Source: a virus
IMG/VR virus record: IMGVR_UViG_3300043015_000405
Location: 1-25,402 of that record
Length of the DNA: 25,402 nt
Direction: 5' to 3' (one strand)
Part shown: piece by piece, positions 2,462 to 25,402 of the stretch
How positions within the stretch are numbered: the stretch's first letter is position 1
Layout: every line of letters begins with the position of its first letter
The notes under the pieces: generated by a model
Seen by the model: only the letters and a program-made list of their open reading frames with translations
Databases searched by the model: none
Told to the model about the DNA's origin: nothing
Position numbers and translations under genes: made by a program

Positions 2462-4102
2462 ATGGCCAAACAAATTTTAAATACAGGGTTACAACCAAAT
2501 GATGGTTCTGGTGACGGTTTAAGAACAGGTGGCGAAAAAATAAACAGTAACTTTAATGAAGTTTACAGTTTATTAGGTGACGGAACTAATTTACTTTCAA
2601 ACGATATTGATTTTGGTCCTAACAAACTTTTACACAGTAATAGTGTTACAAATGTAGGCGGCTTACAAGATATAAACGTTAATACATATAATGGATTAGT
2701 TGTGCTTGTTCAAGATACTGGCGCATTATATTATGCTCACTCAGGTAGATGGTTTAAATTGTTAGCAGACAATTCTGCTAACAATGTTGTAAATTATCAA
2801 GATAACCTAAAAACTGTATCCTATACAGGTGATTATAATGATCTACAAAATAGACCATCTGTACCAACAGACTTAACTGATCTATCAGGTATAGTAGATG
2901 GTAATGCAGGTCAAGCATTGATTACAGACGGTACTGGTAACTTTACGTTTAGAGATATCACTGCTTCTACAATCGAATTTGGTAACATTACAAATAAACC
3001 AACAACGATTGCTGGGTATGGAATACAAGATGCGTTTGATGGAGACTACGCTAATCTTTCAAACAAACCTGCAATATTTTCAGGAGACTACAGCGACCTA
3101 GAAAATGCACCTACAATACCAGTTGATTTAAGCGATTTAACTGATAATACAAGTTTATTGTTTGATGGAGAATATCTAAGTTTAACTGGAAGACCAACTA
3201 TTCCTTCTGATATAAATCAATTAAATGATACGCAGGGATTGTTATTTGGTGGAAGTTATGCAGATTTAACAAATAAGCCTACATCATTTAGTGGATTAAC
3301 AGCATTATCGATGGGACTAGGAATTAGCGTTGACGAATTTTCAAATGATGCAAGTTTAGCAGATGCAAGTACAACAACATTACCTACAGAATTTGCTGTA
3401 AAAAGCTACATTGATAATAGAGTATTAGATGCAGGAATAGGTCTTACAGATTTAGGAGTAGTTGTTAATAGTGTAGGCACTGCCGATTTGAGCTATAACA
3501 ACATTAGTGGCATTTTTACTTATACTCCACCTGATTTAAGTTCTTACCTTACTAGTGTTGCATTTGCAGACTTAACATCTACCCCAACTACATTAGCAGG
3601 TTATGGTATTACTGATTCTCCTACAACCATTACAGATCTAGGAATAAGTGACGGTACTGTCGGTCAAGTACTTACTACTAATGGCGCTGGATCATTTACA
3701 TTCCAAGATCCTGGAGATCAAATTGGAAACTTTACTCTAGCTGCAAGTGTTATTGATACAGACGACTCGAGTGCAATAACAATAACACCAGCCGTAGTAA
3801 TGAGTAGTGATCTAACTGTTCAAAATGATATAATTGTAAATAATGACTTAAGAGTTAATGGAGACATAGTTACAGGAGCAATAGGTGATCCAGAAATTGT
3901 TTCTGAAAGTGATATATTATTAACTGCTGCAACTAGGGTAACAGTTACTCAAAGTCCGTTTAAACTTGCAAGTTTTACTGATGCCGAACGTGACGCACTT
4001 ACAGCTGAAAACGGAGATATGATTTATAACACAACAAACAACCGCCCTGAGATGTATGTCAATGGGGCATGGAAGATTGTTGATACAAGTCCAATAGTTT
4101 AA
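2462..4102 (+). CDS. Tail-fibre-like structural protein with repeats
   Basis: The 546-residue protein is probably a trimeric fibre or baseplate-decorating virion protein. The N-terminus (QPNDGSGDGLRTGGEKINSN and the following NFNEVYSLLG) looks like an attachment segment seen in marine phage structural proteins. Residues 123-275 carry about four repeats of the form GDYxDLxNxPTIPxDLxDL, and two GYGIxD turns typical of phage fibre repeats occur near 185 and in the 355-385 region. The last 45 residues (ENGDMIYNTTNNRPEMYVNG) form an end domain common in fibres. GGAG at 2450-2453 positions the ATG at 2462. It sits directly before a protease gene, and receptor binding or surface attachment is the likely role. 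Which T4 fibre it replaces is not clear. Confidence 0.75.
   Translation: MAKQILNTGLQPNDGSGDGLRTGGEKINSNFNEVYSLLGDGTNLLSNDIDFGPNKLLHSNSVTNVGGLQDINVNTYNGLVVLVQDTGALYYAHSGRWFKLLADNSANNVVNYQDNLKTVSYTGDYNDLQNRPSVPTDLTDLSGIVDGNAGQALITDGTGNFTFRDITASTIEFGNITNKPTTIAGYGIQDAFDGDYANLSNKPAIFSGDYSDLENAPTIPVDLSDLTDNTSLLFDGEYLSLTGRPTIPSDINQLNDTQGLLFGGSYADLTNKPTSFSGLTALSMGLGISVDEFSNDASLADASTTTLPTEFAVKSYIDNRVLDAGIGLTDLGVVVNSVGTADLSYNNISGIFTYTPPDLSSYLTSVAFADLTSTPTTLAGYGITDSPTTITDLGISDGTVGQVLTTNGAGSFTFQDPGDQIGNFTLAASVIDTDDSSAITITPAVVMSSDLTVQNDIIVNNDLRVNGDIVTGAIGDPEIVSESDILLTAATRVTVTQSPFKLASFTDAERDALTAENGDMIYNTTNNRPEMYVNGAWKIVDTSPIV
2828..3286 (+). repeat. Coding repeats of a fibre shaft
   Basis: The encoded residues 123-275 contain degenerate units with a Gly-Asp/Ser-Tyr-x-Asp-Leu-x-Asn-x-Pro core (GDYNDLQNRP, GDYANLSNKP, GDYSDLENAP, GEYLSLTGRP, GSYADLTNKP), often followed by a xIPxDLxDL segment. 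Repeat length is irregular and the DNA is diverged, so this is an old protein repeat rather than a recent tandem duplication. Confidence 0.8.
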
Positions 4103-4110
4103 GGTGATAC

Positions 4111-6183
4111 ATGAGCGAAAAATATTATACACTTGCAACACACTCAGCTGAGCTGTTTGATGAAGTACACGATGCATTAGTAGACGGCAGCTGGTTAGGT
4201 AGAAATGTTTCTTGTGAAGACCATAAAGATCATAGTCCTACAAGAGGTGAGTTTTTATTAACAGACGAAGAAGCTGCCACGGTAGGCGAAGATGCAAGAA
4301 TACATTTTATAAATTTAACGCCTGCAAGATATCCTGAAATTTTTAATGCAACTGATGACGACTTAAGATTAGATATTAACGCTGAAAATTATTCTCGTTA
4401 TGGACAAACAGTTAAAAACTGGCAATTCTGGGCAAATAATGGTGCTATACTAGGATCTTTTACTGAAGACGGATCAGCAGACGTAAGCCGTGCAAGCAAT
4501 CAATTGATACGTTGTAAACAAAAAAGAAATCCTTGGATAAGCGGTGGTTTAAATAATTTTGATTATATTGATAGGGATCCTGTACAACAAGGTGCAGGAG
4601 AACATGTTGATGTAATATGTATGGACAACGGTACTTGGATAGGACACGTTGAATTTATTAATCCAAATAGAGTAAATTTTGATGCAGGCACACCATTGAA
4701 TCCAACTGACTATGTGGGCGGGAATGTATTACCAGGTAATGGATACTGCGATGTATTAGATGTTGTATTAGATGGCCCATACTATATAGATCCAGACTGG
4801 TTTGATGCTGACCCTGACAACAGATTAGAAACACGTTGGGACGGTACTATTGTGCCTGTTGAAAGTGTTGCAAGAACTTGGTGGGGAAATAGCAGTGAAC
4901 GTTCTGCGGCTTTTTCAAGCATTGGTACTGTAACTGTAAGTAGTAGTTATACTAGGGCAGGCGTTCACGGATCTAACACAGCATACCCTTCAACTGCCAC
5001 AGCAGATCATGGAACACAGTGTGGTAGTTTAATATTCGGAAGAACACATGGCTGGGCATATAATTGTAATAAATGGCATTTAAATCTTTACGGTTCAGGA
5101 AGTGCAGGCAGTATAGAAAGAGGGTTTGATCTATGTAAATTATTTCATCAATATAAACCTGTGAATCCGTTATATGGCACACAAGATCCAACTATAGGAT
5201 CAAACAGTTGGGGATATAGAGCAGGAAAAGTAGCAAGTCATTATTTCTTTCAAAGTGCCACTGGTACTACTTACTCCGGAGTAAATGATGAACCAGAGTT
5301 TATGAAATACATGGGATTGGACGGAGATACTTTTCTAGGCACTCGACGTTGGAAATCAGAAATGTATGACAACTCTATGACACAGGCAGGTAAAGAACTT
5401 GTGGATAGTGGATTTATCTTTGTAGCAGCAGCAGGTAATTCTGGACAAATGCAGGTCGATCCAGACGATCCAAATTATGATAATCATATTGGCGATGCTG
5501 TTGACGAAGGCATATATGAAAATTCATTTAGTGAATTTGGCTACTCTGTTACTGGAACTACAAATAGACGAGGATTTCCACAACACCTAGGCAAAACAGA
5601 AATTCAAACTAGCCAAGGAAATACTACTGTAAAATTTCCTGTAATCAATATCGGTGCATTAGATGATGCATTTGGTAGTGGAAAGGAACGTAAAGTTAAT
5701 TACAGCGATACAGGCAATGCTATTGATTTATATGCACCTGCAGATGGTACGTTAGCTGCAACAGTAGGAACATACGGCACAGATGTTGCACGTTATGATG
5801 ATAGTTATACTGGGCTATCAACATCAAGTGATTGTAGAGATACACGGTTTAGCGGAACTTCAGCAGCCTGTCCTGTAGCAGCAGGTTTTTTAGCTACAGT
5901 GTTACAATATAACAGAGGCTGGAATTATAATGATATACGCAACTGGATACAAAACAATGTAGAGATCCAAGATAGTGCAGACTTTTATGATGATACTAGA
6001 GGCACTACAGCAGAAGGCACAGAATGGAGCGATCGTAATAGATTACAAGGCGGTGATGCTAGAGTTGCATATCTAGCTGCTTATCCGATTACAACGCCTC
6101 ATCCTAGTTCCGCTATAAAGAAGCGCATATTAAAAGGACCATTAAACATATCAGGCGGCTTAACAATTAGGTTTAGGAAATGA
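4111..6183 (+). CDS. Subtilisin-family (S8) serine protease, virion module
   Basis: The 690-residue protein has the full S8 catalytic set: Asp172 in DVICMDNGTW, His300 in ADHGTQCG, the oxyanion-hole Asn443 in AAAGNSG, and Ser584 in SGTSAACPVAAG. A SNSWGY segment near 364-369 matches the usual substrate-binding strand. The first about 160 residues are an N-terminal domain I do not recognise. The Asp-to-His gap (128 residues) is much longer than in subtilisin (32), so a large insertion is present. No signal peptide is visible, so it is not an exported host-type enzyme. The C-terminus ends in a basic segment around KKRILKGPLNISGGL. It lies between a fibre-like gene and gp4, in the late direction, suggesting a virion component that cleaves host surface or phage proteins. 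This is distinct from the gp21 prohead protease family. AAGGTGA at 4101 sets the start. Confidence 0.9.
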   Translation: MSEKYYTLATHSAELFDEVHDALVDGSWLGRNVSCEDHKDHSPTRGEFLLTDEEAATVGEDARIHFINLTPARYPEIFNATDDDLRLDINAENYSRYGQTVKNWQFWANNGAILGSFTEDGSADVSRASNQLIRCKQKRNPWISGGLNNFDYIDRDPVQQGAGEHVDVICMDNGTWIGHVEFINPNRVNFDAGTPLNPTDYVGGNVLPGNGYCDVLDVVLDGPYYIDPDWFDADPDNRLETRWDGTIVPVESVARTWWGNSSERSAAFSSIGTVTVSSSYTRAGVHGSNTAYPSTATADHGTQCGSLIFGRTHGWAYNCNKWHLNLYGSGSAGSIERGFDLCKLFHQYKPVNPLYGTQDPTIGSNSWGYRAGKVASHYFFQSATGTTYSGVNDEPEFMKYMGLDGDTFLGTRRWKSEMYDNSMTQAGKELVDSGFIFVAAAGNSGQMQVDPDDPNYDNHIGDAVDEGIYENSFSEFGYSVTGTTNRRGFPQHLGKTEIQTSQGNTTVKFPVINIGALDDAFGSGKERKVNYSDTGNAIDLYAPADGTLAATVGTYGTDVARYDDSYTGLSTSSDCRDTRFSGTSAACPVAAGFLATVLQYNRGWNYNDIRNWIQNNVEIQDSADFYDDTRGTTAEGTEWSDRNRLQGGDARVAYLAAYPITTPHPSSAIKKRILKGPLNISGGLTIRFRK

Positions 6184-6184
6184 T

Positions 6185-6622
6185 ATGCCTAGATTTGCCC
6201 AAGGTAAATTTAATCTAAAAAACCCTGACAAATATGTAGGTACTAAAACGCCTACATATAGATCAAGTTGGGAATTTGCTTTTATGAAATTTTGTGACGA
6301 ACATGCAAGTGTTACACAATGGGCAAGTGAAGCAATACAAATTCCGTATAGAAATCCATTAACAGGAAAGTATACAATTTACGTTCCTGACTTTTTTATT
6401 GCTTACGGCGACAAAGGTGGCAAACAACGTGTTGAACTAATTGAAGTTAAACCTGCAAATCAGGCTATTAGAGAAAAAACAGGACGCAGTCGAGCTAACC
6501 AAGCACATTGGATAATAAATCAGGCTAAATGGGAAGCTGCAAGAGCTTGGTGCAAGCAGAAGGGTTTATTCTTTCGTATTGTTACCGAGGATGATATTTT
6601 TCATACAGGAAAAAGAAGATAA
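6185..6622 (+). CDS. 4: Head completion nuclease, gp4-like
   Basis: The 145-residue protein matches the T4 gp4 (gp50/65) head-completion family, small PD-(D/E)xK nucleases related to the TnsA N-terminal domain that finish the packaged head before tail joining. Visible catalytic elements are Glu30 in YRSSWEFAF, Pro68-Asp69 in YVPDFF, and Glu87-x-Lys89 in LIEVKP. The basic C-terminal part (RSRANQAHWIINQAKWEAAR) fits DNA contact. AGGA at 6175-6178 precedes the ATG by six bases. The stop codon is embedded in the late promoter for the next gene. Confidence 0.9.
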   Translation: MPRFAQGKFNLKNPDKYVGTKTPTYRSSWEFAFMKFCDEHASVTQWASEAIQIPYRNPLTGKYTIYVPDFFIAYGDKGGKQRVELIEVKPANQAIREKTGRSRANQAHWIINQAKWEAARAWCKQKGLFFRIVTEDDIFHTGKRR

Positions 6623-15143: not shown

Positions 15144-15599
15144 ATGGGTTGGTATAGCGAGATATCTCGTGATGTTGGTAAAATACCAAATGCAGTAGCA
15201 CACTACGAAAAAGAACTATCAGACGCAAAACAAGAATGTAAACTTGTCGGTAATGTTGAAAAGTCAGCAGCAGCTATGCCTGGTATCGTAGAGCATCGCT
15301 TTAATCAACTACAAGAGATTGAAGCTATACTAAACTATCTCAATATAGAACTACGTAGATTGCGTAGTTCATACTTCAAAAAATATCTTGAAAATTATCA
15401 ACGAGCTCTGTCAAGCCGTGACGTTGAAAAATACGTTGACGGTGAGGCAGACGTTGTTGACTATGAAAAAATTATTAACGAATTTGCACTACTACGTAAT
15501 AAATGGCTAGGTGTCCTAAAAGCACTCGATCAAAAGCAGTGGCAAATTACAAACGTAGTTAAACTACGTGTAGCGGGCATGGAGGATGCAAGTCTTTGA
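15144..15599 (+). CDS. uvsY: Recombination mediator UvsY
   Basis: The 151-residue protein is of the size of T4 UvsY (137 residues), the mediator that loads UvsX on gp32-coated single-stranded DNA. It is almost entirely helical, with a basic central LRRLRSSYFKKYLENYQRAL segment (about residues 70-89), an acidic VDGEADVVDYEKI segment, and a C-terminal KQWQITNVVKLRVAG typical of marine UvsY proteins. Position after uvsX supports the call. Its stop codon overlaps the TTG start of the following methyltransferase gene. Confidence 0.85.
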   Translation: MGWYSEISRDVGKIPNAVAHYEKELSDAKQECKLVGNVEKSAAAMPGIVEHRFNQLQEIEAILNYLNIELRRLRSSYFKKYLENYQRALSSRDVEKYVDGEADVVDYEKIINEFALLRNKWLGVLKALDQKQWQITNVVKLRVAGMEDASL

Positions 15600-16177
15600 G
15601 ATGTTTAGAAATAGGACCGGGAAAAAAACCGATCAAAGGATTTGAAAGTTTAAATCTAGGTGAAGGACAACGTACCGAAGGCGGAGCAGACCACGAAGGT
15701 GACGCTAGAAAGCTACCATTTAGTGATAAAACTTTTGACATTGTGTATAGTTCACATTGTATTGAACATATACAATGGTATCAAGTTGAAGATACTATTA
15801 ATGAATGGGCAAGGGTAGTTAAGCCTGGAGGTTCCTTAGAAGTTTGGACTGTGAACGGGTATGCTATTGCTAAATCATTAGTAGAATACGAAGAAACAGG
15901 AAAATGGATAGGCCCTCCTATTAAGGAATGGAATAATAAAAAAGTACTTGCTATGCTAAAGGACGATCCTTATTTGTGGGCAAGTGGTCGGATAATGAGT
16001 TATCCAAGATCTGGTGATTATGACTCGAACTTACATAGAGTAATATGGACGCCTAAATTTTTAAAACAATGTTTTGAAAAAGCAGGCTTAAAAAATATTA
16101 GAGATATGGATAGTAGTGAAGTAAGAGGTTATGACCACGGCTGGATCAATATGGGGGTTTGTGGTGTTAAACTTTAG
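15596..16177 (+). CDS. SAM-dependent methyltransferase (type 11-like)
   Basis: The 193-residue class I methyltransferase begins almost directly at the SAM-binding strand: motif I is LEIGPG at residues 4-9, followed by DARKLPFSDKTFDIVYSSHC (36-55), CIEHI, and EWARVVKPGGSLEVW (70-84). The start is unusual. The frame opens with TTG overlapping the uvsY stop (TTGA), with GGAGG at 15581-15585 ten bases upstream and no in-frame ATG near. The nearby ATG at 15601 is out of frame. The later part (HRVIWTPKFLKQCFEKAGL) is the usual family end. It opens the accessory glycan island, so a sugar or small-molecule methyl acceptor is likely; the substrate cannot be read. Confidence 0.85.
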   Translation: MRCLEIGPGKKPIKGFESLNLGEGQRTEGGADHEGDARKLPFSDKTFDIVYSSHCIEHIQWYQVEDTINEWARVVKPGGSLEVWTVNGYAIAKSLVEYEETGKWIGPPIKEWNNKKVLAMLKDDPYLWASGRIMSYPRSGDYDSNLHRVIWTPKFLKQCFEKAGLKNIRDMDSSEVRGYDHGWINMGVCGVKL

Positions 16178-17003
16178 GTCTATAGAACATTTAAATTTAG
16201 CAATTGTAAACAAGCTAGATAAAATACGCTCTTTGAATATTGACTTAGTAGTAGGCATACCTCGTTCAGGAATGTTGCCTGCAAGTTTAATTGCTACACA
16301 CTTACAATTACCATTCGTTGACGTTGATGGTTATAATTCTAACAGATGGTATATTAGAAATAAAAAAGTTACAGTGCCATCAGACATTCCTAGTAATCCG
16401 TTAAGGGTATTGCTAGTTGACGATAGTATTAATACTGGAAATGCTATGCGTAATGTGTTAGGATCGTTACGTAAAAGTAATGACACAGTTATAAAATTTG
16501 CAGTATACGGTTCACCTAAAAACAAATCTGAAGATATTGACTTTGTTTGTGAAGAATGTCCTTTACCTAGAGCATTCCAATGGAACATATGGAAACACAA
16601 TGACGCTAAAAATTGGGCAACAGACATGGACGGTGTATTGTGTCGCGACCCTAACAAAAAAGAAAACGACAAGGGTCCTCGTTTAGAACAGTTTTATAAA
16701 ACAGCAGATACAAAGTTTTTGTTCACTAAACCTATTAAGTATATTATTACTTCTAGAGAAGAACGTTTTAGAAAAGTTACAGAAGAATGGTTGTCGCAAA
16801 ATAATATAGCCTATGAAAAACTTATAATGAAACCTACCAGCAATCCCGGCGGCAATCAATCTCACGCCGAGTATAAAGCTAATACATTAAATAATTTGTC
16901 AGATGTAATTTTTTATATAGAAAGCGATCCCAAGCAGGCTAAGATTATGTCACAACTGGTTAAGATACCAATATGGTGTATAGATAATCAAAAATTATAT
17001 TAG
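16161..17003 (+). CDS. Phosphoribosyltransferase-HAD phosphatase fusion
   Basis: The roughly 280-residue protein joins two domains. The N-terminal type I phosphoribosyltransferase has VVGIPRSGMLPASLIA (about 30-45) and the PRPP loop VLLVDDSINTG (83-93). The C-terminal HAD-type phosphatase has DMDGVL with nucleophile Asp155 and Asp157, ITSRE with motif II Ser198, and an IESD motif near 255. The frame is open back to ATG 16131, which would overlap the previous gene by 47 bases. GTG codons at 16161 and 16164 just after a GGGGG sequence (16153-16157) are the more likely starts. Linked to methyltransferase and sugar genes, it may handle nucleotide or sugar phosphates. The exact reaction is unknown. 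Confidence 0.82.
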   Translation: MVLNFRSIEHLNLAIVNKLDKIRSLNIDLVVGIPRSGMLPASLIATHLQLPFVDVDGYNSNRWYIRNKKVTVPSDIPSNPLRVLLVDDSINTGNAMRNVLGSLRKSNDTVIKFAVYGSPKNKSEDIDFVCEECPLPRAFQWNIWKHNDAKNWATDMDGVLCRDPNKKENDKGPRLEQFYKTADTKFLFTKPIKYIITSREERFRKVTEEWLSQNNIAYEKLIMKPTSNPGGNQSHAEYKANTLNNLSDVIFYIESDPKQAKIMSQLVKIPIWCIDNQKLY

Positions 17004-17011
17004 GAAAAAAT

Positions 17012-17572
17012 ATGCAACAAGTAGATTATAGTTCATGTGCTAACTTACATGAGATAGCAAAAACAACACTTACAGGTTTATCAGAAGTTTATCATGAAGC
17101 GTTTCCAGAGTACATAAGACAACTTCCTAAGTTTTTATCTAAGTGTAGTAGTTATAGAGAACTAGGCACTAATCAAGGCGGATCTGCATCAGTTGCAATA
17201 TTAGAAAATCTTTCTTACTATGAATTAGTTGATAAAAGTTTTAAAAATTTTAGTCCAATAAAAAAACATGTCGATGCTTACGTTAAAGAAAATAGTATTG
17301 ATATTATATACCACGAAATGAGTTCGTTAGATGTTGATACTAATATAGAGACAGACTTTATACTAATAGATAGTGTACACAAATACAAACATGTTTCTTC
17401 AGAAATAAAATTATACGAACCTCTCACTAAGAAGTATATGATGTTTCATGACACTTTTGGCTTTCCTGGAGTGGGACAAGCTGTAAAAGATTTTTTAAAT
17501 TCTAATACCAACTGGAAACTTATAGAAGAACAAAAAGAGACTCCTGGATACATGGTGTTGGAGAGAGTATGA
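17012..17572 (+). CDS. Class I methyltransferase (type 24-like)
   Basis: The 186-residue protein has the pattern of the methyltransferase 24 / cephalosporin-hydroxylase-like group: YRELGTNQGGSA as motif I (48-59), FILIDSVHKYKHVSSEI (116-132), a plausible catalytic-face His123, and FHDT at 145-148. Many such phage and bacterial members sit in surface polysaccharide loci and methylate sugars. AGGA at 17002-17005 supports the ATG. The gene overlaps the following glycosyltransferase by four bases, so they are coexpressed. Confidence 0.78.
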   Translation: MQQVDYSSCANLHEIAKTTLTGLSEVYHEAFPEYIRQLPKFLSKCSSYRELGTNQGGSASVAILENLSYYELVDKSFKNFSPIKKHVDAYVKENSIDIIYHEMSSLDVDTNIETDFILIDSVHKYKHVSSEIKLYEPLTKKYMMFHDTFGFPGVGQAVKDFLNSNTNWKLIEEQKETPGYMVLERV

Positions 17573-18225
17573 TGAAAAATAAAACAATAATTATAAGTGG
17601 GGCAGATTCACATCGATACGGTGCTCATATTAATCATAAAAAATATGCAGACATTAGAGGCATTGATTATAAATTCCATTTAAGTAGCGGACTTGCAAAC
17701 CCTTTTTTTACTAAGTGTTATGCTATCTTAGACAGTTTTGAAAAAGGATACGAATACGTTTTATGGATAGACGATGATGCATTTTTTATAAATCCTAATT
17801 GGAATTGCTTAAATATTTGGAAAGAGTATGCTGAAGATGTTATTGTAACACAAGGAAGAACAAATAAAAAGTCTGGAATAACTCTTTTTAACAATGGTGT
17901 TATGTTTATAAGAAATACAAATAAAATGCGAGATTTATTTGAAAAAATACCTAACACTTCTTGGAAAGATATGCAAGCTAATTGGAATCAATCCTGGGGA
18001 CCTTTAGAAGGTAATGATCAGCCTAGAATGATTTACCTAACACAACTTTACTATCAAGATGCAGTTAAAATTTTAGAATATCCTGGATTTAACGCACATG
18101 AAATCACATTTAAGCAACGGAAAAAATTCTTAGAAACAGAGCCTCCTATTGCCCATATCACAGGCACTAATAAAGAAGGAAAGATACTAAGATTTATAGA
18201 TGTAACTGGTATACCAATTCCTTAA
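17569..18225 (+). CDS. DXD glycosyltransferase (GT34-like)
   Basis: The 218-residue protein has a GT-A-type core: an N-terminal strand KTIIISGAD, a Lys-rich nucleotide-binding region, and the metal-binding DDD at 68-70 in YVLWIDDDAFFINP. FNNGVMFIRNT near 111-121 and a late GNDQPRMI segment follow, as in galactosyl/mannosyl transferases of the GMA12/MNN10 type. No signal peptide or membrane anchor is present, so it acts in the cytoplasm. GGAGAGAG directly precedes the overlapping ATGATG start. Donor and acceptor cannot be assigned. Confidence 0.78.
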   Translation: MMKNKTIIISGADSHRYGAHINHKKYADIRGIDYKFHLSSGLANPFFTKCYAILDSFEKGYEYVLWIDDDAFFINPNWNCLNIWKEYAEDVIVTQGRTNKKSGITLFNNGVMFIRNTNKMRDLFEKIPNTSWKDMQANWNQSWGPLEGNDQPRMIYLTQLYYQDAVKILEYPGFNAHEITFKQRKKFLETEPPIAHITGTNKEGKILRFIDVTGIPIP

Positions 18226-18243
18226 TTTACATTAACCTATTGC

Positions 18244-18251
18244 TATAAATA
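18244..18251 (+). promoter_or_regulatory. Consensus late promoter, five bases before ATG
   Basis: A perfect TATAAATA is followed by TCTTT and then the ATG at 18257. T4 spacing puts +1 on the A of the ATG, as for the promoters at 758 and 10116. It lies in the only real gap (31 bases) of the glycan island and indicates late expression of the genes from 18257 on. Confidence 0.75.
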
Positions 18252-18256
18252 TCTTT

Positions 18257-19024
18257 ATGAAAGTAATACTAGTCACAGGTGGCTTTGATCCACTACACTC
18301 AGGACATATTGAATTATTCAAAGAAGCAAAAAAACTAGGTGATAAGCTGATTGTAGGAGTGAATTCCGATGACTGGCTTACACGCAAAAAAGGCAGGCCG
18401 TTTATGCCCTTTACAGAACGTGCAGCACTTATTAAAGAACTTGCAGTAGTTGATAAAGTTATCGGGTTCGAAGATAGTGACGACAGTGCTTGTCAAGCAA
18501 TATTCCATACACTGTCAACAGAATCTAGTAAAATAATATTTGCTAATGGCGGCGACAGAACTAATACCACAACCCCAGAATACAAACAATACGGTGGCCA
18601 TCCGGATGTTGAATTTGCATTCGGAGTCGGAGGATCAAATAAAGCTAATAGTTCAAGTTGGATACTAGACGAATGGAAAACACAAAAGACAGAACGTGAC
18701 TGGGGATATTGGCGGGTATTAGACGACAAGCCGTCCAAAGGTTATAAGGTAAAAGAGCTTGTAATTTATCCAGGTAAAAGTTTAAGTGATCAGCGACATT
18801 TCAAACGTAGCGAGGTTTGGTCAGTACTAGAAGGTACAGTTAAGATGCAAACAGAATTTGAAAGTAGACAAGAACAGGTTTATCTTGAACGTCATAGCCG
18901 TCCTTATGAAATAGACATAGAAGTATGGCATAAAGCAAGTAACCCAGGAACTGAAAACGCACACATATTAGAAGTCCAATGGGGCGATTGTTATGAAGAA
19001 GACATAGAAAGAAGAGACCAATGA
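18257..19024 (+). CDS. Nucleotidyltransferase-cupin fusion
   Basis: The 255-residue protein joins an N-terminal cytidylyltransferase-like domain (residues 1-140) to a C-terminal cupin (about 150-250). The first has GGFDPLHSGH with the HxGH signature at 14-17, VGVNSDDWL, RAALIKEL and NGGDR (97-101), as in TagD, RfaE and related nucleotide-sugar enzymes. The cupin resembles mannose-6-phosphate isomerase type II: YWRVLDDKPSKGYKVKEL, RHFKRSEVW (metal ligand candidates His181 and Glu186), VLEGTV and WHKASNPG. The pair would activate and isomerise or sense a sugar phosphate for glycan synthesis. The likely product is an NDP-sugar or polyol, but the substrate is not assigned. It overlaps the next gene by four bases. 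Confidence 0.85.
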   Translation: MKVILVTGGFDPLHSGHIELFKEAKKLGDKLIVGVNSDDWLTRKKGRPFMPFTERAALIKELAVVDKVIGFEDSDDSACQAIFHTLSTESSKIIFANGGDRTNTTTPEYKQYGGHPDVEFAFGVGGSNKANSSSWILDEWKTQKTERDWGYWRVLDDKPSKGYKVKELVIYPGKSLSDQRHFKRSEVWSVLEGTVKMQTEFESRQEQVYLERHSRPYEIDIEVWHKASNPGTENAHILEVQWGDCYEEDIERRDQ

Positions 19025-19692
19025 AAGTATTTGTAGGTTACGAACCAAGGGAAGATATAGCGTATCAAGTTTGTAAACACAGTATTCAAAACAAACAACC
19101 AAAAGCAGAAGTACGTCCCCTAATACAAAAAGAACTACGTGATGCTGGTTGGTATTCAAGACCAGTAGATAAACTAGCCAGTACAGAGTTTACGTTTACA
19201 CGATTTCTTATTCCTGAACTTATGAACTTTAAGGGTTGGGCAGTGTTTATGGATTGCGACATGATACTTACAACAGATATAAAAGAGTTGTTTGATCAAG
19301 CAGATGACAAGTATGCTGTAATGTGTGTACAGCATGATTATACGCCGCGTGAAGGTATTAAAATGGATGGTCAAAAGCAAACCATTTATCCACGTAAAAA
19401 CTGGTCAAGTGTAGTATTATGGAACTGTGGTCATCCTAGCAACAGAGTTGTCACACAAGACTTTGTAAATGATACAGAACTAAATGGTGCATATATGCAT
19501 CGCTTTAGTTGGTTAAAGGACGAAGAAATTGGAGAGCTTGATCATACATGGAACTATCTTGTTGGCGTGTATGATGATATCGAAACACCGAAGTTGATAC
19601 ATTATACAGAAGGCGGTCCTTGGTTTGAAAATTACAGAGACTGCGAGTTTAATGAACTGTGGAAAAACGAACTGTATGATATGTTTAAGTAA
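19021..19692 (+). CDS. DXD glycosyltransferase (GT8-like)
   Basis: The 223-residue cytosolic glycosyltransferase has a GT-A core. It starts with KVFVGYEPREDIAYQVCKHS, the family opening, followed by FTFTRFLIPELMNF and the metal-binding DCD at 78-80 in AVFMDCDMILTTDI. Next come a VLWNCGHPSN acceptor-side segment and LDHTWNYL plus LIHYTEGGPWFEN near the end, typical of phage and bacterial GT8-like enzymes. It overlaps the nucleotidyltransferase-cupin gene by four bases and probably uses a sugar that enzyme helps make. Confidence 0.85.
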   Translation: MKVFVGYEPREDIAYQVCKHSIQNKQPKAEVRPLIQKELRDAGWYSRPVDKLASTEFTFTRFLIPELMNFKGWAVFMDCDMILTTDIKELFDQADDKYAVMCVQHDYTPREGIKMDGQKQTIYPRKNWSSVVLWNCGHPSNRVVTQDFVNDTELNGAYMHRFSWLKDEEIGELDHTWNYLVGVYDDIETPKLIHYTEGGPWFENYRDCEFNELWKNELYDMFK

Positions 19693-20452
19693 AAATCTTA
19701 CAGACGAATATGTAAATATGTTTGCCAAAGGTGCTAGGTTGCCTATAGAAGATTACAACTATGACTTTGGTAATAAACCTATACTAATACGAAGCATGGG
19801 TAAACGTAAACTTATACACGAGTGTTGGAAAAACAATCACACTTTTTATTATATGGATAGCGGCTATGTAGGTAACTATAAGTCTAAATCTAATCCTAAC
19901 GGATGGAAGGTGTGGCATCGTATTGTAAAAAATAATGTACAGCATAGCGATATTACAGAACGTTCAGATGACAGGTGGAAACGTTTAGATTATCCTATAG
20001 AAAAACGTAAACAAGGAAAACACATTTTGCTTGTTACTCCGTCAGAAAAGCCGTGTAAGTTTTACGGCGTTGACAAAACTCTATGGGTAGAACAAACTGT
20101 TTCATTACTTAAAAAGTATACAGACAGACCAATAGTAATAAGAGATAAAGCACCAAGACAACAACGTATAACAAAAACAATATTTGATGATCTAAAAGAC
20201 TGTCATGCACTTGTCACTTATCAAAGTATTGCAGCAGTAGAAAGTGTGTTATATGGTGTCCCAGCGTTTACAGCAGCACCTACAGCAGCAGATCCAGTAT
20301 GCGATAAGGATCTTAGTCTAATTGAAACACCTACTGTACAAGACGAACATAAAATATATAAATGGGCGTGTCACTTAGCATATGGACAATTTCATAACGA
20401 TGAATTAAAAAATGGAACAGCCTACAGGATATTAATGAATGAAAACAGTTAG
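19676..20452 (+). CDS. Glycan-synthesis protein, paralogue A (GT-B-like)
   Basis: The protein is one of three diverged paralogues in this island. The preferred start ATG 19676 gives 258 residues. The frame is open to 19625, which would overlap the preceding gene by 68 bases. It shares with the other two a KHILLV strand (115-120), TDRPIVIR (149-156), a TYQSIAAVESVLYGVPAFT segment (181-199) and an IETPTVQDE end. These resemble GT-B/capsule-biosynthesis (KpsS-like) proteins. This copy lacks the HP residues that follow the arginine in copies B and C (it has RDKAP), so it may be altered in activity. Confidence 0.65.
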   Translation: MICLSKNLTDEYVNMFAKGARLPIEDYNYDFGNKPILIRSMGKRKLIHECWKNNHTFYYMDSGYVGNYKSKSNPNGWKVWHRIVKNNVQHSDITERSDDRWKRLDYPIEKRKQGKHILLVTPSEKPCKFYGVDKTLWVEQTVSLLKKYTDRPIVIRDKAPRQQRITKTIFDDLKDCHALVTYQSIAAVESVLYGVPAFTAAPTAADPVCDKDLSLIETPTVQDEHKIYKWACHLAYGQFHNDELKNGTAYRILMNENS

Positions 20453-21353
20453 AATTTATTATGCAGGCATACCAGCTAAAAATAATAAACGAGAAAAAAG
20501 AGACGTTTTAAAAAACTTTCACTTAGGAGTAGGTGAAGGTGGTCACAGTACAGAAGTAGAAAACACAGACTGGCAACCATCAGATCTTGCAGTTATGCAA
20601 GGATGGGTACACGCCAATAGTGGTAACACTCCACACTTAGTTTTTAGAAAAAGAATTATTACAGAACAAAAAAGAATAGGTAAACACACATTAGCTATTG
20701 ACAGTAATTTATTTTTATATAGAGATCCAGGGAACACTAAGCAATACTTACGATTTAGTCTAGATGATGTTTTTCCTACTACAGGAAACTATTTTATAGA
20801 TAGTGTAAATGCTAATAGGTGGCAACAGATTAAAAAAGATCTTAATATAGATTTAAAACCTTGGACTAACAAAGGTAAACATATCCTTATATGTTTACAA
20901 AGAAATGGCGGCTGGAGCATGGCCGGCCTAGATGTGATGGAATGGTGTAACTTAACTATACAAAGTATTAAACAATATACAGATAGACCAATTGTAGTTC
21001 GAGCACATCCGGGAGATAAACGAGCACAGCAGTATTTAAAATTAAATCATCCTAATGTAACAATTAGTAATAAAGCATCTATACTTGAAGATTTTCATAA
21101 ATGCTGGGCTGTTGTAACATATAACAGTAGTCCTGGAGTTGCCGCAGCAATAGAAGGTATTCCTGTGTTTGTTACAGACCCTACCCCGCAAATAAGTCAA
21201 GCATACGATGTATGTAATACTAATTTAAAAGATATTGAAAGGCCTGAGAGACCTGACAGACAGCAATGGATAGAAAAGATTTCAATGAGTCATTTTAATT
21301 TTAACGATTTAAAAACTGGAGTTGCTTGGAAAATTATAAAGGAATACTTATGA
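20439..21353 (+). CDS. Glycan-synthesis protein, paralogue B (GT-B-like)
   Basis: The 304-residue protein overlaps copy A by 14 bases. Its N-terminal half has the segments DLAVMQGWVHA and LAIDSNLFLYRDPGNTKQYL. The C-terminal half has KHILICLQRNGGWSM (147-161), TDRPIVVRAHP (181-191), VVTYNSSPGVAAAIEGIPVFV (225-245) and DIERPERPDRQQW. The arrangement of a TDRPIVVR-HP strand and an S-S-P-G-x-A-A-x-x-G-x-P-x-F segment is that of GT-B transferases and capsule export/synthesis proteins. Donor and acceptor are unknown. Similarity to copies A and C is clear in motif order and spacing. Confidence 0.68.
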   Translation: MKTVRIYYAGIPAKNNKREKRDVLKNFHLGVGEGGHSTEVENTDWQPSDLAVMQGWVHANSGNTPHLVFRKRIITEQKRIGKHTLAIDSNLFLYRDPGNTKQYLRFSLDDVFPTTGNYFIDSVNANRWQQIKKDLNIDLKPWTNKGKHILICLQRNGGWSMAGLDVMEWCNLTIQSIKQYTDRPIVVRAHPGDKRAQQYLKLNHPNVTISNKASILEDFHKCWAVVTYNSSPGVAAAIEGIPVFVTDPTPQISQAYDVCNTNLKDIERPERPDRQQWIEKISMSHFNFNDLKTGVAWKIIKEYL

Positions 21354-22195
21354 AAAATATCACAGTTGTTACCACGTTCCATAAAGAAGGACTAGACTTA
21401 TACGGCCAAAGATTTTTAGATAGCTTCTCTCAGAGAGTAGATAAAAAAATCAAGATGCTAGTTTATGCAGAAGATTGCAATCCAACCAATCCAGATCCGG
21501 AACAGATTATAATACTAGATGCAAAAGAAGCATTGCCTAAACTAAACACATTTAAAGAGCGTTGGAAGGATGATCCTAAAGCAAATGGTACTCCGCCAGA
21601 CGATATTAAACGTAGTCGTCCTAGAGATTGGCACAAAGGATTTAAATGGGATGCAGTGAGATTTGCAAATAAAGTATACGCTGTGCTTGATGCTTGCGAA
21701 AGATCTAAAGATTGGTGTGTTTGGATGGATGCAGATATGTTTGTTCATAGCAGCTGGGGTCATAAACAATTTGCAAAACTACTTCCAGATAATATGTGGC
21801 TAACTTATGTAGGCCGTGGCAGAGCAGCAGCAACTTGGCCAGAATGCGGGTTTTACGGTATGAATTTAAATCATCCAGTGTGTCACGAGTTTCTCAAAGA
21901 ATTCGAACGTATGTATGAAGAAGCAGATGATGGTATTTTTAAATTACCCGAATGGCATGATAGTTATGTGTTCGGATATATATTAAATAATATGAAAAAA
22001 GATTTTCCTTTGGTTTTAGATTACACTGCAAACACTGTTTTACAAACTGCAAGGACTGGCGGCGGCGGACATCCTTTAATCAATACTGAGCTAGGTGCAT
22101 ATATTGATCATCTTAAAGGCGCTAGGAAAAATTTAAAGAAATCAAAAAAAAGTGATATAAGCGTTACTCGTACAGAAGAGTACTGGAGACAGTAA
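21350..22195 (+). CDS. DXD glycosyltransferase
   Basis: The 281-residue protein is a predicted cytosolic glycosyltransferase. The true start is ATG 21350, which overlaps the previous stop (ATGA) and has AAAGGA upstream; an in-frame TTG at 21326 is unlikely. Evidence is the strand ITVVTTFHKEG at the N-terminus, the FKWDAVRFANKVYAVLDA helix, the metal-binding DAD at 127-129 in CVWMDADMFVH, GFYGMNLNHP, and a WHDSYVFGYIL segment near the end. A basic C-terminus (ARKNLKKSKK) follows. It sits between paralogues B and C and is coupled to both neighbours. Confidence 0.82.
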   Translation: MKNITVVTTFHKEGLDLYGQRFLDSFSQRVDKKIKMLVYAEDCNPTNPDPEQIIILDAKEALPKLNTFKERWKDDPKANGTPPDDIKRSRPRDWHKGFKWDAVRFANKVYAVLDACERSKDWCVWMDADMFVHSSWGHKQFAKLLPDNMWLTYVGRGRAAATWPECGFYGMNLNHPVCHEFLKEFERMYEEADDGIFKLPEWHDSYVFGYILNNMKKDFPLVLDYTANTVLQTARTGGGGHPLINTELGAYIDHLKGARKNLKKSKKSDISVTRTEEYWRQ

Positions 22196-22917
22196 TGGAA
22201 AAATATGCAGCAATAACAAGTATGGATCGTAAATATTATGATCATTGTGGAAGGTCTATGCTAAGGTCTTTCAAAACAAATTGGTCTCATCTGTTTAATT
22301 TATATGTGTATAACGAAGATGAGTTTGAAGTAAAAGTAAAAGCAGTAACTCCTGTTGGATGGGATCTTGGTTTAGAATATGACAATTTTATGTCTCGACA
22401 TAATAATCCTAGAGTAAAAACTTTTGCAAAAAAAGGGTTCACAATTATACATGCAATGGATAATATAGATTGTGAAAAGTTAATTTGGTTAGATGGTGAT
22501 ACAATAATTAAAGCAGAAGTTCCAATGCAGTTATTAGAACTAATATCGCCAGACGATGTCCTTAGTACACATTTTAGCGTATGGCATATAAAAGATGACG
22601 TATCTTATCATAGTTGTGAAACAGGGTTTTTTATTTTAAATAAAAAACATAAAGGCTATACAGACTTTTGTAATACATACAAACAAATATATTACGAAGA
22701 CAATATAGACGGATTAAGACGGTTTTATGACGGAGAAGTTTACGGCAAAACTGTAGAATTAATGGAAGCTAAGGGACATAAGATGTTAAATCTTAACCCA
22801 GGAAAACATAAGACACCTATTAGTAGAAGTGTAATATCTCCATACTTAGATCATTACAAAGCAGGATTAAAAGATCAAATAGATTATAGTAAATTAGAAA
22901 AAGAGTATGAAGATTAG
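22195..22917 (+). CDS. DXD glycosyltransferase (GT8/GT32-like)
   Basis: The 240-residue protein has an N-terminal strand YAAITSMDRKYYDHCGRSML, a helix with FAKKGFTIIHAM, the metal-binding DGD at 100-102 in LIWLDGDTIIK, and a CETGFFILNKKHKGY acceptor-side segment. It has no membrane segment. The start codon overlaps the preceding TAA (TAATG), and the gene overlaps paralogue C by 11 bases. It is the fourth DXD enzyme in the cluster and differs clearly in sequence from the other three, so a distinct linkage or donor is likely. Confidence 0.82.
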   Translation: MEKYAAITSMDRKYYDHCGRSMLRSFKTNWSHLFNLYVYNEDEFEVKVKAVTPVGWDLGLEYDNFMSRHNNPRVKTFAKKGFTIIHAMDNIDCEKLIWLDGDTIIKAEVPMQLLELISPDDVLSTHFSVWHIKDDVSYHSCETGFFILNKKHKGYTDFCNTYKQIYYEDNIDGLRRFYDGEVYGKTVELMEAKGHKMLNLNPGKHKTPISRSVISPYLDHYKAGLKDQIDYSKLEKEYED

Positions 22918-23755
22918 TTTATGGACAAATCATGGCGCACTTAATAGTAAACCAGTTTTTGATGCCTTTGCTCACAGTTGTGTGGCTGCTGGGCATGATG
23001 TTGTTTGGAATGATCCTGTTTCTGATGTTGATGTTATTTGGAGTGTTCTTTTCGCTGGCAGAATGGCTCAGAATAAAAGTATCTGGGAACGGGCAGTGGC
23101 ACAATCCAAACCGGTGGTGGTCCTAGAAGTAGGTGGTATCAAAAGAGGAACAACTTGGAAGGTAGGATTAAATGGCATTAATAGAGATGCTTTTTTCGGT
23201 GATGCTGGGAACGATAGTAGGCGTAGCAATTTACTTAATCTTAGATTAAAGCCTTGGAAATACAACGGCGAGTATATATTAATTTGTGGCCAGCACGATA
23301 AGAGCTTACAGTGGGTCAATATGCCTTCAATGAGTCAATGGGTACATAGTACTATTTCATATATAAGAGCAAGGACTGATCGACCTATAATTTTTCGACC
23401 TCATCCTAGGTGCAGATTGCCTGCCATTGAACACGAATTTAAAAACGTTAGAAGACAAGAACCTAAACAAGTTCACGGAACATATGATGACTTTGATATG
23501 AAGTTTGATAACATATGGGCAACTGTGAGCTGGAGTAGCAATCCTGGTATTCATAGTATTATAAATGGAGTACCTGCATTTACAGGTCCTAGTAGTCTAG
23601 CATTTGATGTTGCAGACCAAAAGTTAGACAATATAGAGAATCCTTTATATCCTGACAGAACACAATGGCTGAACGACTACGCATGGACAGAATTTACAAT
23701 TGAAGAAATAGCTGAAGGCTTACCACTTAAACGCTTGACAAAAAAGATAATCTAA
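22907..23755 (+). CDS. Glycan-synthesis protein, paralogue C (GT-B-like)
   Basis: The 282-residue protein is the third paralogue. It has an N-terminal Rossmann-like start (KISLWTNHG ... FAHSCVAAGHDVVWND) and DVIWSVLFAGRMAQ. Shared core motifs are EYILICGQHD (122-131), TDRPIIFRPHP (157-167), VSWSSNPGIHSIINGVPAFT (207-226), and IENPLYPDRTQW. LKPWKYNG just before the core parallels LKPWTNKG in copy B. The gene's last 20 bases contain the -35 region of the next promoter. It closes the glycan island. Confidence 0.68.
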   Translation: MKISLWTNHGALNSKPVFDAFAHSCVAAGHDVVWNDPVSDVDVIWSVLFAGRMAQNKSIWERAVAQSKPVVVLEVGGIKRGTTWKVGLNGINRDAFFGDAGNDSRRSNLLNLRLKPWKYNGEYILICGQHDKSLQWVNMPSMSQWVHSTISYIRARTDRPIIFRPHPRCRLPAIEHEFKNVRRQEPKQVHGTYDDFDMKFDNIWATVSWSSNPGIHSIINGVPAFTGPSSLAFDVADQKLDNIENPLYPDRTQWLNDYAWTEFTIEEIAEGLPLKRLTKKII

Positions 23756-23769: not shown

Positions 23770-25014
23770 ATGACATATGAAGCTCGTACAATTGAAGACT
23801 TGTTAGAACTTATTGCTAGTTTACAGCAAGGACCAAAGATACAAATACAATCTAGTGATGTAAATTTTTTATATAGCATCGGCAGACAGGTGTTTAAAGG
23901 CACTCCGTTAACCGATAGGCAGTACCATGCTGTAAAAGAAAAATTATCCCTATATAAAGATCAATTGCAAGATTATAACTTTGAACTAGCTGTAGACAAT
24001 CTAAGAATGCCGTTGCGTCAAATTGATCGTAGCAAATATATTAAAATTGCTGACCATATAGACGTAGCAGGAAACAAAGTATATGAATCATTTAAAAGTG
24101 ATTGGAAGTGGATAAAGATTAGATTTCCCTTCAGTAAGAAATTAATAATTTTACTAGACAAAATATCTAAACAATATTATGAACATGAAAAAGGTTCTCA
24201 TATTCATTATTTTAGATTTGATGAACAGAACACTTTTGACATTGTTGAAAGTTTTAAAAATAAAGAATTTGAAATAGATAACGAATTAATAAATCAATAT
24301 TACGAGATATTAGAAATGAAGAATAATAAAAAAGATTATGTACCAGGTATATATAATTTAAAATTAAAAAATTTAAATCAAAATGCAATAGATTATATTA
24401 TTAGTTCTGTTGGCGAACCTAATATAGATAACCTTGCTTTATTTAAAGACAGAAAAGATACTCTAGGACTAGAATACTTCGATGACGACAACTTAAATGA
24501 AAGCATATTTAAATTATCTCCACTAAGTCAAAAAATAGTTAATCGTGTATCTCCTAATGTATTAATAACACCTGAATCATACACCTTTAATACAGTAGCA
24601 GAAAGTTTATTAGAACTGAATAGATTTCCATTGCTAGTTCTCCTCAATGAAGATTCTGCATTAGATGAGCTACATTTAATTAATCAATCTTTTAAAGGTT
24701 TTATAGACAGTACAGAGTCATCCGTGCTATTTAGGCTTGATAATGAGAATAATGCAAATTTTAATAATTATGTAAAAAATAATAATCTTAATTCTCCTCT
24801 TGACAAATCTACTAAAGTAGTGTATATTAATAGTAATAAGGTTCCTAAGCCCTTGATTAAATCAGACTGGGAGCCAGAAGCAATGTTGTTAATGTCTAGT
24901 TTTAGGTTACGACAGCATTCTACTATACTGGCGGAAAATGTAGACTTGGTTATTCATTATGATAATAACATGAGTCAAGTAATGCGTATAAAAGAAGGAA
25001 TACAAAAACTTTAA
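23770..25014 (+). CDS. Unrecognised protein coupled to uvsW
   Basis: I do not recognise this 414-residue protein. The N-terminal 65 residues (LELIASLQQGPKIQIQSSDV ... LTDRQYHAVKEKL) are helical, the middle (about 95-230) is Lys/Asn-rich, and the C-terminal part (about 285-414) looks like an alpha/beta domain with LLELNRFPLLVLLNEDS, TKVVYINSNKVPKPLIKSDW, and ENVDLVIHYDNN strands. No Walker A, signal peptide or membrane segment is seen. Its sigma70-type promoter suggests early expression. Its stop overlaps the uvsW start (TAATG), so the two are translationally coupled. A role with UvsW in branch processing or origin remodelling is an inference from position only. Confidence 0.6.
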   Translation: MTYEARTIEDLLELIASLQQGPKIQIQSSDVNFLYSIGRQVFKGTPLTDRQYHAVKEKLSLYKDQLQDYNFELAVDNLRMPLRQIDRSKYIKIADHIDVAGNKVYESFKSDWKWIKIRFPFSKKLIILLDKISKQYYEHEKGSHIHYFRFDEQNTFDIVESFKNKEFEIDNELINQYYEILEMKNNKKDYVPGIYNLKLKNLNQNAIDYIISSVGEPNIDNLALFKDRKDTLGLEYFDDDNLNESIFKLSPLSQKIVNRVSPNVLITPESYTFNTVAESLLELNRFPLLVLLNEDSALDELHLINQSFKGFIDSTESSVLFRLDNENNANFNNYVKNNNLNSPLDKSTKVVYINSNKVPKPLIKSDWEPEAMLLMSSFRLRQHSTILAENVDLVIHYDNNMSQVMRIKEGIQKL

Positions 25015-25402
25015 TGGCAACATGCAAACTTATAATTGAAGATGAAGTAAACATCAAGCTAGAAGGACTTGACGTTGATGTACGTCGAAAGCTGGCAAAC
25101 TCTCTTAAGTTTGAAGTCCCATATGCACGATATATGCCTCAGTATAAACTAGGACGATGGGATGGTAAGGTTGCTTTCTTTGGCATTGGTGGTACAGGTT
25201 ACGTCAATCATCTTGACATTATTAGTGATGTACTTGCGAAAAATAATGTACAAATAGTTGACATTGAGGATAACAGACATCCTGTACAATTAGACTTTCA
25301 GCCTATTGACGAACGCTACTGGGCAGACCAGGGTGTTGTATGGCCTAAAGGTCATCCAGCAGAAGGCGAAGAGATTATTCTACGTGACTATCAGGTCACA
25401 GC
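25014..25402 (+). CDS. uvsW: UvsW-like helicase, 3' end outside window
   Basis: The first 129 codons of a superfamily 2 helicase are present and open to the window edge. UvsW in T4 unwinds R-loops and branched DNA and switches replication from origin-dependent to recombination-dependent. The N-terminal domain has LEGLDVDVRRKLANSLKFEV, YARYMPQYKLGRWDGKVAFF, and GYVNHLDIISDVL, a recognised UvsW N-terminal pattern. The fragment ends in IILRDYQVTA, the Q-like motif that precedes the Walker A motif. The start overlaps the preceding stop (TAATG). It is the start of the gene, not a degraded copy. Confidence 0.85.
   Translation, partial: MATCKLIIEDEVNIKLEGLDVDVRRKLANSLKFEVPYARYMPQYKLGRWDGKVAFFGIGGTGYVNHLDIISDVLAKNNVQIVDIEDNRHPVQLDFQPIDERYWADQGVVWPKGHPAEGEEIILRDYQVT

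Follow-up and report, generated by a model that had tools for sequence, protein, structure and literature searches.

The large sugar-gene clusters of phages have three standing explanations: decoration of the virion, alteration of the host surface and modification of DNA. Among the closest described systems are the P-SSM2-type polysaccharide clusters of cyanophages and other jumbo phages (PMC7824862), which combine glycosyltransferases, a HIGH nucleotidyltransferase, a cupin, methyltransferases and epimerases and are polymorphic between phages. A similar inventory occurs in the DNA analysed here, a 25.4-kb IMG/VR fragment (IMGVR_UViG_3300043015_000405, 25,402 nucleotides, hereafter the window) of a T4-like jumbo phage. 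Positions 15596-23755 hold an island of eleven open reading frames (ORFs), all on the plus strand and mostly overlapping, that encode two methyltransferases, a phosphoribosyltransferase-HAD fusion (PRT-HAD), a nucleotidyltransferase-cupin fusion (NT-cupin), four DXD transferases (GT8 among them) and three GT-B paralogues; here epimerases and polymorphism are seen in the island's relatives. Unlike the P-SSM2-type clusters, the island has a fixed site between uvsY and uvsW, a six-gene constant core (NT-cupin, GT8, GTB1, GTB2, DXD3 and GTB3), paralogues of the KpsC/WbbB fold and a module of KdsA and KdsB nearby, and no PfkB sugar kinase was seen among the window genes or in 25 family tallies. The original prediction, made from the window alone, had the island's coordinates and domain calls right but counted ten genes; its flanks, uvsY and uvsW, also stand, although one further gene, orf414 (23770-25014), intervenes between the island and uvsW. 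As set out below, this is a conserved, variable glycan locus found throughout a large clade of marine jumbo phages bearing UvsX, UvsY and UvsW.

Relatives were retrieved as viral contigs with a GT8 query (303 contigs) and with a uvsY query (at least 599), uvsY serving as an anchor that does not depend on GT8, and the comparison set comprised 47 distinct contig stretches spanning uvsY to uvsW (6.7-13.0 kb, median 9.5 kb). The counts that follow depend on tblastn thresholds, the contigs are fragments, and the IMG/VR samples may hold near-duplicates of one population. GTB1, GTB2, DXD3 and GTB3 were each found in all 47 spans, and NT-cupin and GT8 in 46 each. DXD4 was present in 8, the first methyltransferase (MT1) and PRT-HAD in a single span, and the second methyltransferase (MT2) and DXD1 had a counterpart in none of the 47. 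The comparison of gene content in close relatives that had been proposed as a check thus separates a core, found in 46-47 of the 47 spans, from a remainder that turns over. The core genes evolve under purifying selection in relatives (dN/dS, the ratio of nonsynonymous to synonymous divergence, 0.03-0.27). What this comparison does not bear out is the notion that the genes are inserted in a recombination module: island genes follow uvsY in all 36 loci of the uvsY-chosen sample with at least 5.5 kb of downstream sequence, and a one-off insertion was discarded as an explanation because no empty site occurs among these 36 loci. The GC content of the island (0.351) falls between the values of its flanks (0.369 and 0.316), so that composition is no mark of foreign origin either.

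Around this core the gene content is fluid. Clustering of the 557 island ORFs gave 71 clusters, 30 of them singletons. Most representatives of the variable ones are polysaccharide enzymes, namely NAD-epimerases, GDP-Man dehydratase, UDP-sugar dehydrogenase and StrS aminotransferase, accompanied by pyruvyl- and sulfotransferases, CTP_transf_3 cytidylyltransferases and FkbM/TylF methyltransferases. Clear homologues of MT1 and PRT-HAD among the spanning loci are confined to L046 and L048, where the two genes are again adjacent, this time not after uvsY but between GTB2 and DXD3; they therefore seem to be mobile as a pair. GT8 comes in two classes, class A being unfused in all 95 cases and class B being fused to GTB1 in 16 of 22, which suggests that the two proteins may act in a coupled fashion. 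We dropped the idea that these classes are randomly scattered over the UvsX tree, since they are weakly clustered (12 changes against a shuffled mean of 14.7, with 5 of 200 shuffles as low). An unusual conservation of GT8 was likewise rejected: the first sample had been GT8-selected, and in the uvsY sample GT8 identity is 54-88% compared with 75-94% for UvsX. The orientation of DXD3 also varies, the gene lying on the minus strand in 24 of 45 rows and on the plus strand in 21 (for example L012:17140-17985 vs L015:6085-7020), and on the UvsX tree its strand has switched at least 12 times.

Allele exchange at the island can be seen directly in a few pairs of phages. From uvsX onwards L008 and L063 share 98.4% identity as far as position 4310 of L008; this is six bases short of the end of the GT8 match, and beyond it nothing aligns until GTB3 (77-78% identity). 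The backbones of L038 and L036 are 99.4% identical, vs 86.6% for the stretch from NT-cupin to GTB1, and the reverse holds for L038 and L052, with 75% identity in the backbone and 93% in the island. Between L034 and L052, synonymous divergence (dS) is 0.08 for uvsX and 0.84 for NT-cupin. These few clear events are allele exchange at the island; they do not thereby prove a recombination hotspot.

The sugar that such a locus might handle is indicated by genes beyond uvsW. Contig L002, identical to the last 988 bp of the window, runs on past uvsW and encodes two cupins, KdsA, KdsB and one more methyltransferase. KdsA (L002:3517-4278, outside the window) matches the structure of 3-deoxy-D-manno-oct-2-ulosonic acid (Kdo)-8-phosphate synthase (3fs2, E 9e-78), and KdsB (L002:4247-4924, also outside the window) that of cytidine monophosphate (CMP)-Kdo synthetase (1vh1, E 4.6e-25). 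From sequence identity and synteny, rather than from a joined assembly, we infer that L002 and the window would represent one phage. KdsA is encoded in all six loci that extend far enough past uvsW, L002 included, and KdsB in five of them. Among the longer records, G001-G004, G006 and G007 have KdsA and/or KdsB, while in G005 and G012 KdsA is cut off by the contig end; the two genes are thus a conserved feature of most relatives. A search of 50,697 phage records returned S-SCSM2R and LR756500 as carriers of both kdsA and kdsB homologues, together with Acinetobacter phage MD-2021a records that look bacterial, and a literature search for phage kdsA/kdsB gave nothing relevant. With credible pairs in just a couple of annotated phage records, the pathway appears to be under-recognised in phages.

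The GT-B paralogues point to the same chemistry. The AlphaFold2 model of GTB3 (22907-23755, the right end of the core; predicted local distance difference test, pLDDT, 93.7) matches KpsC (6mgd, E 1.5e-7, TMq 0.58), and its top PDB matches are all KpsC, WbbB or KrkA, above every other solved structure, while sequence profiles of the GTB proteins detected no similarity to solved members in the PDB. In the characterised enzymes CMP is bound by a (K/R)XHP motif and serines, and the Asp of QXXXD is the covalent nucleophile (PMC12887879, PMC9587256, PMC10148158). RxHP is present in all 69 GTB2-class and all 52 GTB3-class copies (121/121) and in none of the 43 GTB1-class copies; in the window it reads RAHP in GTB2 (20439-21353) and RPHP in GTB3, each along with SS. 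QxxxD is kept in 24 of the 121 GTB2- and GTB3-class copies (20 and 4, respectively), and 23 of 49 spanning loci have such a copy (for example L020, L042 and L098), the window not being among them. Since KdsA and KdsB follow uvsW and the KpsC/WbbB-like GT-Bs carry a CMP-phosphate motif, the signature component is likely to be a Kdo-type sugar, and the product of the locus is most likely a methylated, variable glycan that contains Kdo or a related ulosonate and is made by soluble enzymes. That the locus could make, activate and assemble a methylated oligosaccharide, as originally predicted, finds good support in the families, the folds and the sugar-nucleotide enzymes that relatives have in the same slot, except that part of the activation, by KdsA and KdsB, lies outside the window.

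Drawing on gene content, the conserved core, swapping, folds, motifs and KdsA/KdsB, we infer a reaction order, an acceptor and a benefit along the following lines. KdsA and KdsB would make CMP-Kdo or a related CMP-ulosonate, with the host supplying arabinose-5-phosphate, the phosphatase step and other sugar nucleotides, and NT-cupin would provide a second activated sugar. Soluble transferases would assemble a short oligosaccharide, GT8 acting early, GTB2 and GTB3 adding CMP-activated acidic sugars and the DXD enzymes adding hexoses; PRT-HAD might attach a ribofuranose from phosphoribosyl pyrophosphate (PRPP), and the methyltransferases would cap the chain. A virion protein would be glycosylated in the cytosol ahead of assembly, and swaps of the variable slots between phages would alter the glycan, as bacterial O-antigen loci do. 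A variable glycan-assembly locus with Kdo-type chemistry, and a virion protein as its most likely acceptor, is in our judgement the best explanation, and we believe it about as readily as we doubt it.

Several observations weigh against this explanation. In the window, the Asp nucleophile that characterised retaining Kdo transferases have is missing from GTB2 (QRNGG replacing QxxxD) and GTB3 (QHDKS), and GTB1 (19676-20452), a KpsC-family paralogue without the HP motif, has neither the CMP motif nor the Q of QxxxD; donor and mechanism may therefore differ. KdsA and KdsB were not found in the large relatives G008 (L088), which is without GT8 as well, and G011 (L160), nor did they have a match in the whole records of phages Mosig and CcrColossus, though both of these have GT8 and GTB homologues. 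No acceptor gene could be identified, and a cytosolic lipopolysaccharide (LPS) core could also serve as acceptor. As judged from their motifs, GTB2 and GTB3 probably use a CMP-sugar, by a mechanism that is possibly unlike that of the characterised enzymes.

As for where the glycan goes, the choice lies chiefly between the virion and the host surface. By a crude hydropathy test, transmembrane-like segments (KD19 at least 1.6) occur in just 4 of the 557 island ORFs (maximum 1.88) and in none of those in the window; hence there is no apparent flippase, polymerase or exporter, and assembly should be cytosolic. Without apparent export or membrane machinery in the locus, a cytosolic acceptor is favoured, that is, virion proteins or new LPS core. 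We count in favour of the virion that proteomics detected at least two glycoproteins in XacN1 (PMC5852040), which belongs to the same broad group of jumbo phages, and that in CcrColossus the GT8/GTB pair has a tail gene on one side and lysis genes on the other. The other possibility, which we regard as rather unlikely but deserving of serious attention, is that the soluble transferases act on nascent lipid A-core at the inner face of the inner membrane and change the receptor to the point where competitors fail to adsorb, resulting in superinfection exclusion, as Iyer et al. (2021; PMC7824862) propose for cyanophage and other jumbo-phage polysaccharide clusters that are polymorphic between related phages. 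Kdo is an LPS-core sugar whose supply KdsA and KdsB could increase, and serotype-like variation of the island fits a role at the host surface; however, no membrane, flippase, polymerase or transporter gene is apparent in the island, and there is no evidence here of pseudolysogeny. We put the chance that a virion protein is the acceptor at about one half, with the host LPS core as the main rival and DNA as an unlikely third. More tentatively, and at less than even confidence, we suggest a 'serotype locus' in which CMP-Kdo supply and KpsC-fold transferases, partly without the covalent Asp mechanism, would yield acidic, variable virion glycans that are exchanged via the conserved GT8 and the neighbouring recombination genes. 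Decoration of virions, if it occurs, would give phage particles serotypes that are encoded in the manner of bacterial O-antigens. Bacterial GT8 homologues were rejected as a clue to the target, since their neighbours are mixed (TPR proteins, ManC and a sulfotransferase) and the best matches are phage contigs in metagenome-assembled genomes (MAGs). In marine alphaproteobacterial contigs (L176:7992-13398 and L177) a TPR protein gene is surrounded by GT8, GTB-like and DXD3-like genes, which may be the cellular equivalent of the phage core.

The remaining explanations appear much weaker. Hypermodification of DNA bases by the transferases, akin to glycosylation in T4 and protecting against restriction, was among the targets originally considered, and the island does sit among DNA recombination genes, phage DNA glycosylation being an established theme. 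However, the sole Thymidylat_synt match in the 357-kb relative G001 is full-length (E 1.6e-100) and looks like canonical ThyA rather than a dCMP/dUMP hydroxymethylase, and shorter relatives had no such match, although this is weak evidence, since the records may be partial; Tet_JBP was not found either, in a search that is uninformative because no control gave a signal. Seven transferases, together with the methyl-, sulfo- and pyruvyl-transferring enzymes of relatives, go beyond known DNA sugars, and we know of no precedent for a Kdo-type donor on DNA. We consider DNA a very improbable target. Scarcely more probable is that PRT-HAD, the methyltransferases and NT-cupin make a free small molecule, either a Ter-like nucleoside signal or a secondary metabolite. 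Ter systems do make nucleoside-like metabolites with phosphoribosyltransferases and HAD enzymes (Iyer et al., 2021; PMC7824862), the PRT domain here is closest to purine phosphoribosyltransferases (E 7e-6 to their structures, the only ones returned from the PDB) and the HAD half resembles polynucleotide-kinase phosphatases. However, no Ter genes are seen in the window, the core consists of transferases and not synthases, and PRT-HAD and MT1 occur together, at a different slot, within the glycan locus of L046 and L048.

NT-cupin (18257-19024) joins an HldE-C/TagD-type nucleotidyltransferase (CTP_transf_like, E 1.7e-15) to a ManC-type cupin isomerase (MannoseP_isomer, E 1.2e-16), and GT8 (19021-19692; DCD motif) matches its Pfam family at E 7.3e-7 and PHROG 28018 at E 2.9e-51. 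The AlphaFold2 model of DXD3 (21350-22195; DAD motif, pLDDT 90) is a GT-A fold closest to the GT6 alpha-1,3-GalT/ABO enzymes (E 1.6e-8), a likeness at the level of the fold only (TM-score about 0.4). DXD4 (22195-22917), an accessory GT-A-like transferase, has a DGD motif that was read from the sequence; neither it nor DXD3 nor the GTB proteins had a useful Pfam match. The variable slots hold the S-adenosylmethionine methyltransferase MT1 (15596-16177; Methyltransf_11, E 1.7e-12), which has a TTG start and overlaps the uvsY stop; PRT-HAD (16131-17003; type I, Pribosyltran, E 2.1e-11), whose true start is probably near 16167 and which has both active-site signatures, the PRPP loop LVDDSINTG and the HAD motifs DMDGVL and ITSR, in common with L046; MT2 (17012-17572), a CmcI/Methyltransf_24-like O-methyltransferase with weak Pfam matches (7e-4 and 4e-3); and DXD1 (17569-18225), GT-A-like (Nucleotid_trans/GT34-like) with WIDDDAF and a weak Pfam match (3e-4). 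On the same strand, the conserved left flank is uvsY (15144-15599; PHROG 231 UvsY, E 2e-16) and the right flank is the 5' part of uvsW (25014-25400; UvsW_N/PHROG helicase). Between island and uvsW, the plus-strand orf414 (414 residues) is present in 46 of 47 spans, conserved yet fast-evolving (34-46% identity in the uvsY sample) beside far better conserved neighbours, with no family match and an empty profile search against the PDB.

UvsX of the window is 65% identical to that of Agrobacterium phage Atu_ph07 and resembles those of other Rak2-type jumbo phages. Atu_ph07, which gave no match to GT8 or GTB, has neither KdsA nor KdsB. No isolated phage belonging to the clade turned up. No tRNAs were found in the window, a promoter and terminator scan showed no excess, and a candidate late promoter upstream of NT-cupin, TATAAATA, was discarded because its frequency is not above chance. 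Elsewhere in the window, the tail/baseplate region contains a Peptidase_S8 subtilase gene (4111-6183) directly followed by a gene for a TnsA-like endonuclease (6185-6622) that is conserved in relatives. L037 has about 680 bp extra (~2890-3571) between its g74 homologue and uvsY relative to the 97%-identical L020. Two contigs binned in a Neomarinimicrobiota MAG, L166 (PBPT01000016.1, 335 kb) and L167 (PBPT01000082.1, 153 kb), have the same order of SSB, uvsX, uvsY, island and uvsW and look like misplaced phage contigs of this clade.

Compared with described enzymes and phages, the locus resembles several systems in part. Its GTB3 fold is that of KpsC (GT107), WbbB (GT99) and KrkA (GT140), and GTB2 and GTB3 share with these the RxHP motif, the paired serines and the Q of QxxxD; unlike them, the window's GTB2 and GTB3 are without the Asp nucleophile and GTB1 without HP, and because QxxxD is missing we do not file the window's GT-Bs as retaining beta-Kdo transferases. 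PRT-HAD recalls the bipartite ribofuranosyltransferases (gPRT plus HAD; PMC11127046) in fusing a PRPP-using domain to a HAD phosphatase within a glycan locus, but its PRT domain matches ordinary purine-type enzymes in Pfam and the PDB, so that the likeness is one of analogy, not membership. In Synechococcus phage S-SCSM2R (PQ898602) KdsB and KdsA lie no more than 3 kb from a GT8 homologue (49%), but the genomic context is another one, and the stretch examined there contains nothing homologous to GTB or DXD3. A GT8 homologue stands beside a GTB-family protein in both Pelagibacter phage Mosig and Caulobacter phage CcrColossus, with DXD3-like, sulfotransferase and FkbM genes present in Mosig as well, but the neighbouring genes are different in both. 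The membrane flippase, polymerase and GT-C proteins of serotype-converting Gtr and Wzx-Wzy systems are, by hydropathy, not apparent in the island. The chemistry is now specific enough to test: the sugar is probably of the Kdo type, the core is defined, one enzyme family has an unusual active site, and there are phages that are nearly identical yet diverge at this locus. Phage glycan clusters as such are already known; what is new here is the Kdo wiring, combined with a constant core and variable slots.

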